NCBI RefSeq assembly: GCF_900108105.1
Contig: NZ_FNUR01000013.1
Span: 1 to 64,000 of the forward strand
DNA length: 64,000 nt
Reading direction: 5' to 3'
Source of the DNA: Butyrivibrio sp. Su6
GTDB taxonomy: Bacteria; Bacillota; Clostridia; Lachnospirales; Lachnospiraceae
Shown here: positions 1-37,503 of the stretch, piece after piece
Position numbering within the stretch: the stretch's first letter is position 1
Layout of the letters: every line of letters begins with the position of its first letter
Program-made: the position numbers and the translations under genes
The notes under the pieces: generated by a model
Told to the model about the DNA's origin: nothing
Seen by the model: the letters and a program-made list of their open reading frames with translations, nothing else
Database searches by the model: none

Positions 1-121
<121 letters not shown>

Positions 122-27580: not shown

Positions 27581-27703
27581 TATTTCTCCATAAAAAACTT
27601 CATCTTTTGGGTTACCATAAATACAATACCACAAAAAAAGCACTCTGAAAACCGCATAAATACGCACTTTTTAAAAAAATTAAAAAAAAATTGAAAAAAG
27701 TAC

Positions 27704-27732
27704 TTGCATTAATGTTTATGACGTAGTAATAT
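27704..27732 (+). promoter_or_regulatory. Promoter of tRNA-Lys
   Basis: TTGCAT (27704-27709), 17 nt, TAATAT (27727-27732), about 35 nt before the tRNA. Confidence 0.75.
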
Positions 27733-27766
27733 ATCACTTGTCGTTAAGAACGGCACACAAATAAAT

Positions 27767-27839
27767 GCGCTGCTAGCTCAGTTGGTAGAGCACCTGACTC
27801 TTAATCAGGTTGTCCAGGGTTCGAGACCCTGGCAGCGCA
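27767..27839 (+). tRNA. tRNA-Lys (anticodon CUU)
   Basis: A 73-nt cloverleaf. Acceptor GCGCTGC pairs with GCAGCGC, discriminator A. The anticodon loop CTCTTAA gives CTT. D arm TAGCTCAGTTGGTAGAGCA and T arm GGGTTCGAGACCC are canonical. CCA is not encoded. Confidence 0.97.
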
Positions 27840-27844
27840 CGCCG

Positions 27845-27889
27845 AGTACTGTTTTCGCAGGTATATCCTGTGGGGATGGTACTTTTTTT
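27845..27889 (+). terminator. Terminator of tRNA-Lys
   Basis: Arms AGTAC/GTACT (27845-27849 with 27879-27883) close a long hairpin whose inner positions pair mainly through G-U pairs around CAGG/CCTG, followed by a run of seven T. It lies 5 nt after the tRNA. Confidence 0.75.
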
Positions 27890-27902
27890 CGCGTCAAAGT
27901 GA

Positions 27903-28041
27903 GCCACGCAAGATAAATAAACCGGATACGAGTTCGTGAGGAGTTTACTCATCTAAGAACTTGTATCCGGTTTATTTGGTTTATGCGGCGAACGCCGCGT
28001 AAACGAGAAATTTGCAAAGCAAATTTCGAGTCTTGCGTGGC
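27903..28041. other. 139-bp element able to form a four-way junction
   Basis: Outer 11-bp perfect inverted repeat GCCACGCAAGA (27903-27913 with 28031-28041) encloses three consecutive hairpins: 21 bp with one G-U (27915-27935 with 27957-27977, loop containing a small TGAG/CTCA stem), 10-12 bp GC-rich (27979-27990 with 27993-28004) and 9 bp GAAATTTGC/GCAAATTTC (28007-28027). Flanking CAAAG/CTTTG can extend the outer stem. Almost every base of the element is paired. It lies between the tRNA-Lys terminator and the end of the convergent radical SAM gene. It has no protein-coding potential that I trust. It could be a structured RNA, a cruciform-forming repeat or a MITE-like element. Confidence 0.8.
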
Positions 28042-28079
28042 CCTTTGTCTGCATGGCTCATTTCTTGGTCAACCGCGCA

Positions 28080-29570
28080 TCATGCGCCCTTTATACCTTC
28101 GTCACTTTCTGTTTTCGGCTTAGCTTTAAAAGCTGCTAAAGTTCCGTTTTCTCTCTTCTCTTTGATGTAATTCTCATACTTCTTCTTGGTATGTTTCTGA
28201 TGAGCCCAGATTTCATCAGCCACTGGTGCCCACTCTTTTGCATACTCATCACATTTTCCGCAAAGATGCTCTACATCCTCTTCAGATTCTTCATTTGTTC
28301 CATGCGCTCCCGATCTTTCAACCATTTCCCTAAGGAGCTGTGGATTCTCAAGCATTGGACAAGGTCTTAAGTGATTGCGATTAAATGGCTGGCCTTTGTG
28401 ATACTCCATGAATAACGGGCTCTGAAGCATCTCAAGTATTGAATGCGTATGAATGTTTGTATTAGAAAAATGAATAAATACGCAAGGTTCTGCATCTCCG
28501 CTTGAATTGATGTGGAAATAGTTTCTTCCGCCGGCAATACATCCTCCAACTGACTCTCCGTCGTTTTGGAAGTCCATTGGGAAGAATCCTATATCACATC
28601 TATCACTTCTTAAGTATCTTATCTGATCTACCATCTTACGCCTCTGCTCAACTGTCGGCATAAGTTCAGGAACAGCGTTATTTCCAACCGGCATGTAATG
28701 GAAGAAGAAGCCAAATCTTGCTCCTTTTTCAGCGATAAACTCTATAAACTTTGGATCTGTTACAGCTTCAATATTGTTTCTTGTATAACAGATTGAAGTT
28801 CCATAGACTATTCCATATTTCTTAAAAAGATCCATTGCTTTCATTACCGCATCGTAATGACCTATTCCTCGTCTTGCATCATTGGTTTCAGGTGTTCCTT
28901 CAATAGAAAGCTGGAATGTGATATTTCCCAGTCTTACTACTTCTTTACAGAAATCTTCATCAATGAGCGTAGAATTATCAAAAATTGAAAATTCCACATC
29001 GTTATGTTTCTCAGCAAGTCTTAGGACATCTTTTTTACGTACAAGTGGTTCGCCACCTGTCATCATATATAAGTAAACTCCAAGTTCTTTTCCCTGAGTA
29101 ACTATCTTGTCCATATCCTCAAAAGAGAGATTGTGCTTCGGGCCATATGTTCCAGACCAACAGCCTTCACAATGCATATTGCAGGCGCTGGTAGGATCGA
29201 AAAGAATAAGCCATGGAATATTACAATTAAATTTTTCTCTGTTAGCTCTTATCATCTTGGTTCCCCTGAAAAATGCTTCATATCCAAGATTGAGCATCAT
29301 CATTTTTGCTACATGTGGATCTGTCTCATCTACCACTCGATTAAGAAACTTAACCCATCTGTTATTCGGATCCTGAAATGCTTTTTTAACGAGTTCAAGT
29401 TTCTCCTTGTCTGCTCCCTCACCCCAGAATTTCCCCGCTTCATCTACAAGTTTAAGATAAGTTGCCGTCCTGTCCTCTGATTTATCCAGGTGTTTTAAAA
29501 ATCTGTCTATAAGAATACTAAACGCTTGCCTTTGAGCTTTGTGTGAAACTTTTTCCACAAATGTTGTCAT
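28080..29570 (-). CDS. Radical SAM protein with C-terminal extra Fe-S-type cysteines
   Basis: 496 residues. The radical SAM cluster motif CNMHCEGC (CX3CX2C) is near residue 130, preceded by IPWLILFDPTSA and followed by MMTGGEPLV. C-terminal cysteines (GGCIAGGRNYFHI, GDAEPCVFIH, LRPCPM, HLCGKCDEY) suggest a SPASM-like or twitch domain with one or two further clusters. An N-terminal helical region of about 110 residues precedes the barrel. The substrate is unknown; no precursor peptide gene is visible nearby. Its promoter region holds two inverted repeats, and a TetR gene lies directly upstream. ATG 29570 follows a GGAGG at 29578-29582, about 7 nt upstream. Confidence 0.85.
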   Translation of the reverse strand: MTTFVEKVSHKAQRQAFSILIDRFLKHLDKSEDRTATYLKLVDEAGKFWGEGADKEKLELVKKAFQDPNNRWVKFLNRVVDETDPHVAKMMMLNLGYEAFFRGTKMIRANREKFNCNIPWLILFDPTSACNMHCEGCWSGTYGPKHNLSFEDMDKIVTQGKELGVYLYMMTGGEPLVRKKDVLRLAEKHNDVEFSIFDNSTLIDEDFCKEVVRLGNITFQLSIEGTPETNDARRGIGHYDAVMKAMDLFKKYGIVYGTSICYTRNNIEAVTDPKFIEFIAEKGARFGFFFHYMPVGNNAVPELMPTVEQRRKMVDQIRYLRSDRCDIGFFPMDFQNDGESVGGCIAGGRNYFHINSSGDAEPCVFIHFSNTNIHTHSILEMLQSPLFMEYHKGQPFNRNHLRPCPMLENPQLLREMVERSGAHGTNEESEEDVEHLCGKCDEYAKEWAPVADEIWAHQKHTKKKYENYIKEKRENGTLAAFKAKPKTESDEGIKGA

Positions 29571-37191: not shown

Positions 37192-37503
37192 TTAGTTGTT
37201 AGCTGATGTAGCTTCTGTAGCAGCTTCTTCTACAGATGAAGCGTCTGCTGCAGCATCTTCTGAAGTAGCTTCTGTAGCTGCTTCCTCAACAGATGAAGCA
37301 TCTGCTGCTGCGTCTTCTGATGAAGCCTCAACTGAAGCGTCCTCAGATACAGCCTCTACAGCCTCTTCTACTGATACTTCTTCAACAGCCTCAACTGATG
37401 TCTCTTCTACTGCTGTCTCTGTTGTAGCTGCTTCGCCGCAACCAGCAAGAACTGCTGCTGAAAGTGTTAAAACTGAAAGTAATGTTACGATATTCTTCTT
37501 CAT
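37192..37503 (-). CDS. Small acidic repeat lipoprotein
   Basis: 103 residues. Signal peptide MKKNIVTLLSVLTLSAAVLAGCGE with lipobox LAGC predicts lipid anchoring outside the membrane. The mature part is nearly all Ala, Glu, Ser, Val, Asp and Thr, including two tandem identical 19-residue units (EDAAADASSVEEAATEATS). It has no fold I recognise and is probably disordered. ATG 37503 has GAGGAGAAA upstream. It has its own promoter at 37597-37625. The function is unknown. Confidence 0.8.
   Translation of the reverse strand: MKKNIVTLLSVLTLSAAVLAGCGEAATTETAVEETSVEAVEEVSVEEAVEAVSEDASVEASSEDAAADASSVEEAATEATSEDAAADASSVEEAATEATSANN
37205..37318 (-). repeat. Two tandem 57-bp repeats
   Basis: Units 37205-37261 and 37262-37318 differ at several bases but encode the same 19 residues, so the differences are silent. 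A shorter degenerate unit follows. They lie in the lipoprotein gene. Confidence 0.85.

Follow-up and report, generated by a model that had tools for sequence, protein, structure and literature searches.

The nearest described system is Clostridiales-1 (RF01699), which Weinberg et al. (2010; PMC2864571) present as a probable RNA, not cis-regulatory, occurring in Clostridiales and in the human gut; in the open-licence literature of PMC no work on its function or mobility was found. Two classes of intergenic DNA invite comparison as well. REP/BIME and RUP/BOX/SPRITE repeats are palindromic and often located at gene 3′ ends (cf. PMC10969869), and the MITEs driven by bacterial insertion sequences, here those of the IS1182-like kind with PF13751/PF05598 transposases, are short, non-coding, multi-copy and intergenic. 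The element described here, which lies downstream of a tRNA-Lys gene in a 64-kb stretch of Butyrivibrio sp. Su6 DNA (the window), resembles both. It differs from the former in the biased orientation of its family to the upstream gene and in its defined three-arm junction. With the latter it also shares an extended outer inverted repeat in some copies, whereas neither a target duplication nor a partner transposon was found for its own subfamily, whose internal fold is conserved on the RNA strand.

The element behind tRNA-Lys and its fold

The plus strand of region 27893–28051 folds at −89.2 kcal/mol (z = −12.6) and the minus strand at −76.5 kcal/mol (z = −11.8), and on either strand none of 200 shuffled sequences folded equally well. 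The minimum-energy fold of the plus strand is a four-way junction composed of the parts listed in Table 1. A previous sequence-only reading of this locus had proposed a 139-bp four-way junction, and both its coordinates and its arms were correct. The outer repeat, given there as 11 bp, is a helix of 12 pairs, one of them U-G; the three hairpins of 21, about 11 and 9 bp fold as arms of 21, 11 and 9 pairs; and the small stem placed in the loop of the longest arm corresponds to the apical stem GAG-UUUA-CUC of five pairs (27936–27940 with 27948–27952). The CAAAG/CTTTG flank extends the outer stem as predicted, 27895–27899 pairing with 28043–28047.

Table 1. Positions of the element, its parts and the adjoining features in the window.
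Feature	Position	Strand	Remarks
Element	27903–28041	+	four-way junction, type A of the window family
Outer stem, 5′ strand	27903–27914	+	pairs with 28030–28041; minimum-energy fold and covariation
Outer stem, 3′ strand	28030–28041	+	minimum-energy fold
Arm 1	27915–27977	+	21 pairs (27915–27935 with 27957–27977) and apical stem
Arm 2	27979–28004	+	11 pairs (27979–27989 with 27994–28004); conserved GCGGCGAACGCCGC hairpin
Arm 3 hairpin	28007–28027	+	9 pairs (28007–28015 with 28019–28027)
Left leader CGCGTCAAAGTGA	27890–27902	+	just 5′ of the outer stem
TGTCTGCATGGCTCATTT	28046–28063	+	28040–28063 share 18 of 24 letters with the right end of type B
tRNA-Lys (CTT)	27767–27840	+	ARAGORN; RF00005, 69.1 bits; insertion spot in its 3′ flank
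tRNA-Lys intrinsic terminator with T-run	27844–27889	+	hairpin 27844–27884; sole terminator-like match in 27650–28150
Radical SAM protein gene, convergent	28080–29570	−	3′ end faces the element

As had also been noted, the element sits between the tRNA-Lys terminator and the end of a convergent gene. The latter encodes a radical SAM protein whose nearest named records belong to Butyrivibrio sp. AE2015 (98%) and B. proteoclasticus P18 (97%); the genes on either side of tRNA-Lys plus element are TatD and radical SAM. A query composed of tRNA-Lys and its terminator gave matches in 78 of the 79 genus genomes, some of them to the tRNA part alone. The window copy has no T-run and thus lacks the hairpin followed by a T-run that defines an intrinsic terminator; the sequence-only reading, which held that it is not an ordinary terminator, is borne out by the only terminator-like match between 27650 and 28150 being that of tRNA-Lys. 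No sigma-70-like promoter was found in the same interval. The outer 11-mer does not occur elsewhere in the 64-kb window with up to one mismatch allowed, and no target-site duplication was detected by eye at this copy, again in line with that reading. Leaders of the CGCGTCAAAGTGA kind (GCGCGT..TGA) precede many copies, including copies away from tRNA-Lys.

The terminator stretch itself (27841–27889) retains a small stem surrounded by an internal loop (TGTTTTCG/GGGGATG), also in L282–L321, and this stem changes pairwise among the relatives printed (GCAGG/CCTGT, TGGG/CCCA, TAGG/CCTA); from its sequence, the tRNA-Lys terminator may be more than just a terminator.

Rfam searches of the whole window at the gathering threshold returned three tRNAs and the end of a 16S rRNA gene, and nothing else. 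The latter gene (1–121, minus strand) is cut by the left edge of the window and has its 5′ end inside it; positions 37202–37330 contain short direct repeats, about 57 nt long and rich in GCT/TCT. Weak Rfam matches of the window copy, to microRNAs and others, were read as chance matches of a long hairpin. A guide-like function of arm 1 was likewise discarded, as blastn against its own genome yielded only arm 1 itself, apart from matches at E > 0.3.

Relatives, covariation and the folding strand

Full-length relatives were found by blastn across 79 genus genomes, tRNA-Lys lying within the fetched stretch for 27 of the 31 loci printed. The relatives fall into two subtypes. In type A, to which the window copy belongs, the outer stem reads GCCACGCAAGA, arm 2 is TTTATGCGGCGAACGCCGCGTAAA and arm 3 is short; in type B the stem reads GCCATGC or ACCATGC, arm 2 is short, and arm 3, closed by CGACA/TGTCG, is long. 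Two covariance models with overlapping matches were built from 15 copies (R1) and 13 copies (R2). At E ≤ 0.01, R1 had matches in 72 and R2 in 77 of the 79 genus genomes; at E ≤ 0.001, R2 had matches in 167 of 299 Lachnospiraceae genomes, drawn evenly from a larger group. Per-genome R2 counts ranged from 0 to 19 among the matches listed. The blastn and covariance searches that the sequence-only reading had called for thus yielded homologues across the genus and the Lachnospiraceae, with covariation. The genome of the window itself carries eight copies at E ≤ 1.2e-9, two of which are mutually inverted behind the convergent rplQ and D-alanyl-D-alanine carboxypeptidase genes, and blastn of plasmids and phages gave no match to the element at E ≤ 0.01. 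A further subtype was observed outside the genus, in which a long hairpin replaces arm 3 (L214, L274–L276, L278, L368, L371, L379 and L380); in genomes G184 and G248 it has outer repeats resembling GTAACAGTTC, and in G184 it is arranged in tandem.

In an alignment of 75 R2 matches, 96.9% of the cells were paired, changes on both sides were seen at 41 of 44 pairs and in all arms, and the covariation score was 0.706, as against 0.181 for shuffled alignments and at most 0.122 with slid partners; as this alignment was fitted to the model, the slid controls weigh more than the raw pairing percentage. Double changes were likewise present at 35 of 51 pairs among 21 type-A R1 matches. In the nearest relatives (G008 and G053), C27923-G27969 is replaced by A-U and U27914-G28030 by C-G, and across the relatives the letters of arm 1 change while its pairing is retained. 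The arms are therefore conserved and covarying, where a lack of covarying homologues or of conserved arms had been named beforehand as grounds for giving the proposal up.

In order to define the strand that folds, arm 1 was scored as a palindrome in which G-T and A-C come at equal cost; the conserved apex and arms nearly identical to one another were excluded. The 78 copies so scored contained 64 G-U pairs and 12 A-C mismatches, G-U being commoner in 39 copies and A-C in 10, with 29 tied; the raw count before these exclusions was 113 versus 20 (94 of 96 rows). When the tRNA-Lys copies were removed, 41 G-U as against 10 A-C remained in 55 copies, and the copies favouring either were 22 versus 9 (p = 0.03). 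Since a role of double-stranded DNA predicts equality, this excess of G-T over A-C indicates that the sense RNA, or the plus single strand, folds. Compensatory changes with a preferred strand are thus found together, and of the options left by the sequence-only reading the structured RNA is supported, by covariation in every arm and by the predominance of G-U over A-C on the plus strand, whereas a cruciform or recombination site is disfavoured, as no preference for G-T over A-C would be expected of double-stranded DNA. The four-way junction is real and conserved as a sense-strand RNA structure and, as judged from the aligned copies, is under selection on the RNA strand.

The RF01699 model, which has a curated cut-off of 48 bits, did not match the window copy at E ≤ 10, although the tRNA-Lys ortholog of this copy in G065 (L129) scored 51.5 bits and thus above the cut-off. 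Full-length matches below the cut-off were obtained for L134 (41.7 bits), L130 (38.9), L171 (38.0), L206 (32.1) and L185, a copy in the window's own genome (37.1). Altogether 6 of the 29 distinct window-family loci scanned were matched and the other 23 were not; L315, L319 and L321 gave no match. RF01699 itself exceeded the cut-off in 76 of the 79 genomes of the genus and in none of 14 control genomes, four of which had sub-cut-off matches at E ≤ 10. As many as 31 matches (E ≤ 1) were counted in a single genus genome, although per-genome copy numbers are rough because no more than 30 candidates were scored in each. Six places in the window's own genome lie above the cut-off, none of them in the 64-kb window.

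The two groups have much in common. In both, an outer stem encloses three arms, both occur in Lachnospiraceae, and the fold shows the long arm 1 with an apical loop of the GCUUGC type (the window copy has GUUUAC, and 11 of the 15 sequences in alignment A1 have GCUUGC). They further share a GAGGAA..UUCCGA hairpin motif, read here as tandem G.A, a mostly sense position behind genes (27 of 36 loci, the ends of four being approximate) and, in G056, occupation of the same tRNA-Lys spot. They differ in the outer stem, which is GCCAYGC in the window subfamily and UGAUNNN in Clostridiales-1, in the location of the GAGGAA motif (arm 3 and arm 2, respectively), in the additional conserved GCGGCGAACGCCGC arm of the window subfamily, and in that most tested members of the latter do not match the RF01699 model. 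In Clostridiales-1, arm 2 is formed by AUGAGGAAG..GAUUCCGAAU and arm 3 by GAUUGCGAGAG..GGAGCAAUC, neither of which the window copy has; sequence comparison assigns to it GCGGCGAACGCCGC and GAGAAAUUU..AAAUUUCGAG instead. The G-U excess in arm 1 of the window subfamily was also absent from Clostridiales-1, where 23 G-U stood against 17 A-C in 32 copies (41 loci, of which seven were skipped by the script and two dropped for identical arms). On these grounds we class the window element as a divergent sister of Clostridiales-1 and not as a member of it.

Position, turnover and movement

Most copies of the window family occupy the 3′ end of a transcription unit, in the sense orientation. Their context was tallied for 96 rows, five of which had no upstream feature, with genes taken as longest ORFs and not as curated calls; as the original tally had doubled some loci matched by both R1 and R2, the following numbers are a recount of distinct rows. 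Of 53 distinct copies away from tRNA-Lys, 39 have an upstream feature on the same strand, which in 28 cases ends at most 17 nt from the outer stem, and 14 have one in opposite orientation. The upstream features include tRNA-Arg, tRNA-Gly, tRNA-Pro and tRNA-Leu as well as protein genes that, as identified by Pfam, encode ribosomal proteins S9 and L17, rubrerythrin and carboxypeptidase; at L163 and L179 the gene is NifU-like, so named via a C-terminus common to the NifU of the window. The TGA directly 5′ of the stem is the stop codon in 7 of the 22 ORF ends read (L147, L148, L152, L163, L171, L186 and L213), and at tRNA-Lys the stem begins 60–67 nt after the tRNA, right behind the T-run.

Of 95 copies, 56 had T-runs of at least five residues on the 3′ side of arm 1, as against about 25 expected by composition. 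The share was as high behind tRNA-Lys, where a terminator is already present (20 of 33), as elsewhere (36 of 62), and a terminator role specific to copies without an upstream terminator is thus unsupported.

The tRNA-Lys spot was surveyed at 71 sites from 70 genus genomes, 31 taken from the element searches (the window's included) and 40 fetched. A window-family element was present at 40 sites, some divergent or partly decayed and scoring down to 34 bits, and Clostridiales-1 at one (L316 in G056; 74.6 bits, above the cut-off). At seven sites visual inspection showed no more than relics (a bare outer stem, for example), and 19 had no element (R2 at E ≤ 0.1, RF01699 at E ≤ 0.01); of the remainder, two were weak or doubtful and two at a contig edge. 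In the near relative G009 the spot carries a full type B element followed by the 3′ half of type A. Beside the window copy, the TGTCTGCATGGCTCATTT stretch is, from its likeness to type B, probably what remains of an element that occupied this spot earlier, and the same tail is present in G008 and G009. The tRNA-Lys spot has thus been filled repeatedly. At L295 (G022) and L299 (G034) all that the spot holds is a bare hairpin formed by the two strands of the outer stem, as though the three arms were excised.

Evidence of transposition was obtained for Clostridiales-1 copies of one Butyrivibrio clade. Near-identical copies lie in unrelated surroundings in G016, G018 and G019, and all eight copies fetched from these genomes and G014, which were chosen for their alike scores, carry direct repeats of 5–6 bp at their ends, with T first and A last. 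Genome G026 contains seven complete copies (L352–L358) of a transposon of 1854–1857 bp with Clostridiales-1-like ends (TGATRTAGGTGTCAAAAG). The copy read, L352, encodes a DDE transposase of 551 amino acids (PF13751 and PF05598) whose best NCBIfam match, below the cut-off, is IS1182, and all seven copies show the same kind of target duplication. Duplications of at least 5 bp were found in all 15 end pairs (eight of Clostridiales-1 and seven of the insertion sequence) as against 9 of 210 swapped pairs; L266 and L267, a single locus on two contigs, were left out of this test. Another Clostridiales-1 copy, L268 in G022, had no target duplication by eye, and no signal was obtained from 31 other Clostridiales-1 loci, a set that left out L221 and four of L222–L256 as contig-edge loci.

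The same analysis gave no signal for 53 window-type copies, in which the longest direct repeat was 5.15 as against 5.13 when swapped. No transposon-sized pair of window-type ends was found in the 79 genomes using a narrow pattern that misses the window's own end, nor an IS1182-like transposase in 30 genomes, the window's included, in a search run without a positive control. Window-type copies with unrelated surroundings were nevertheless found. In G155, copies 98.2% identical over 166 bp have unrelated left flanks, as do contig-edge copies in G221 that are 96.6% identical over 179 bp. The copy behind rpsI in G028 (L166) is 93% identical over 165–167 bp to L172 in G030 and L173 in G004, which are not behind rpsI and have other sequence upstream. 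This likeness begins 32 nt before the stem, within the last rpsI codons, and the moved unit therefore carries the tip of rpsI, that is its last codons and stop. The copies in G030 and G004 have more upstream sequence in common (91% over 224 bp) and, on that basis, may represent one insertion. Within the window's own genome, blastn at the DNA level revealed no near-identical copy beyond part of one copy. The sequence-only reading had also offered a MITE-like repeat, and this holds in so far as the element is dispersed, multi-copy and represented by near-identical copies with unrelated flanks (G155, G221, and G028 versus G030 and G004), and as the eight related Clostridiales-1 copies have target duplications; it fails in that neither the window copy nor its subfamily shows any.

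A second kind of copy is local. Partial self-copies within 260 nt downstream were present at 40 of 102 window-family loci and upstream at none of the 102; loci with such downstream-only copies include L377, L375, L369, L202, L207 and L199. The 5′ part is missing from most of these copies, many of them extending to the 3′ end (e.g. L377, 31–131 of 131, 99%), and those of L370, L373, L374 and L368 hold the 5′ part instead. For Clostridiales-1 the corresponding numbers were 4 of 31 downstream and none upstream. In several arrays (e.g. L369, L202, L132, L386 and L207) the spacer is repeated as well, which fits a tandem duplication of the 3′ part with its flank and lowered our estimate of these copies as retro-truncations. 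A symmetric process would, however, give upstream partial copies too; strand-biased slippage, selection on the gene side and RNA-templated copying are candidate causes of the 40-to-0 polarity.

Explanations weighed and their meaning for the family

We consider the element to be a divergent Clostridiales-1-like, non-autonomous 3′-end RNA repeat that lodges mostly behind stop codons, tRNAs or a tRNA terminator and has a putative role in the cell, a reading to which we assign a probability of roughly 0.55. The transcript of the upstream gene would extend 3′ through such a small repeat, whose sense transcript would fold into the four-way junction. The fold would act in cis at the RNA 3′ end, arm 1 possibly serving as a terminator-like or protective hairpin, and this action would render insertion at that place harmless or useful. 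The window subfamily may be moved by a transposase supplied in trans.

The most serious competitor, which we regard as a good deal less probable, is a 3′-end RNA domesticated by the host as a terminator, a stabiliser or a processed trans-acting RNA, in which case the window subfamily would now move little or not at all. Its conserved fold on the RNA strand and the lack of target duplications at window-type copies agree with this, as does the recurrence of certain spots: in different genera, behind rpsI in G028, G181 and G356 only and behind a rubrerythrin gene in G237, G200, G287 and G092; behind rplQ in G000 and G062; and behind tRNA-Lys in much of the genus. Domestication is difficult to reconcile with the empty and relic-only tRNA-Lys sites (19 and 7 of 71), with R2 matches varying from 0 to 19 per genome among those listed, and with the near-identical copies that have unrelated left flanks (G155, G221, and G028 versus G030/G004). 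In particular, the moved copies that carry the rpsI tip raise the non-autonomous RNA repeat and lower a domesticated element that does not move.

Two explanations at the DNA level appear unlikely, and to a similar degree. If the element were a plain MITE, of which only the ends matter to the transposase, the internal arms would be passive; the Clostridiales-1 duplications in G014, G016, G018 and G019 and the matching IS1182-like ends in G026 would be expected, but passive arms would decay, whereas here all arms pair with differing sequence across genera and G-U is preferred over A-C. A folded-DNA element, such as a cruciform, a single-strand recombination site or an attC-like or REP-like structure, would suit the near-perfect palindromes, the hot spot adjacent to a tRNA and the turnover of copies. 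The asymmetry of G-T versus A-C misfits double-stranded DNA, even if single-stranded plus-strand DNA could fit it, and the sense orientation to the upstream gene fits RNA.

That the RNA takes part in its own spread by RNA-templated copying, as a bacterial analogue of a short retroelement, seems very improbable, for although the downstream-only and mostly 5′-deficient partial copies (40 versus 0 of 102), the sense position at transcript 3′ ends with its strand asymmetry, and the donor gene's 3′ tip on moved copies all speak for it, the spacer is repeated in many arrays, as DNA-level tandem duplication gives, and the target duplications observed belong to a DNA transposase system. Retron msr-msd RNAs consist of an outer stem that closes short hairpins and one long variable hairpin. 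The window element likewise closes short hairpins and a long variable one, but its long arm comes first on the supported strand; with this strand order, and flanked by TatD and radical SAM with no reverse transcriptase, it was rejected as a retron.

Clostridiales-1 gains from these data a large sister group that is mostly unannotated, a bias of position, in sense and at the 3′ ends of genes and tRNAs, and evidence for the movement of at least some of its copies with an IS1182-like transposase. A more speculative proposal, to which we give little weight, is that Clostridiales-1 and the window subfamily form one mobile-RNA superfamily of Lachnospiraceae whose folded sense RNA, produced as a 3′ extension of tRNA or protein genes, helps to target or copy the element to gene 3′ ends; if that were true, the 40-to-0 polarity and the carried gene tip would be traces of RNA-templated or transcription-directed copying. 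For the non-autonomous RNA repeat favoured here, a 'ncRNA' so far without explanation in a major family of the gut and rumen becomes a testable matter, being either a selfish repeat that codes for RNA and has a safe place to land, or a 3′-end regulator that spreads, and counts of such 'ncRNA genes' would in part be counts of mobile repeats.
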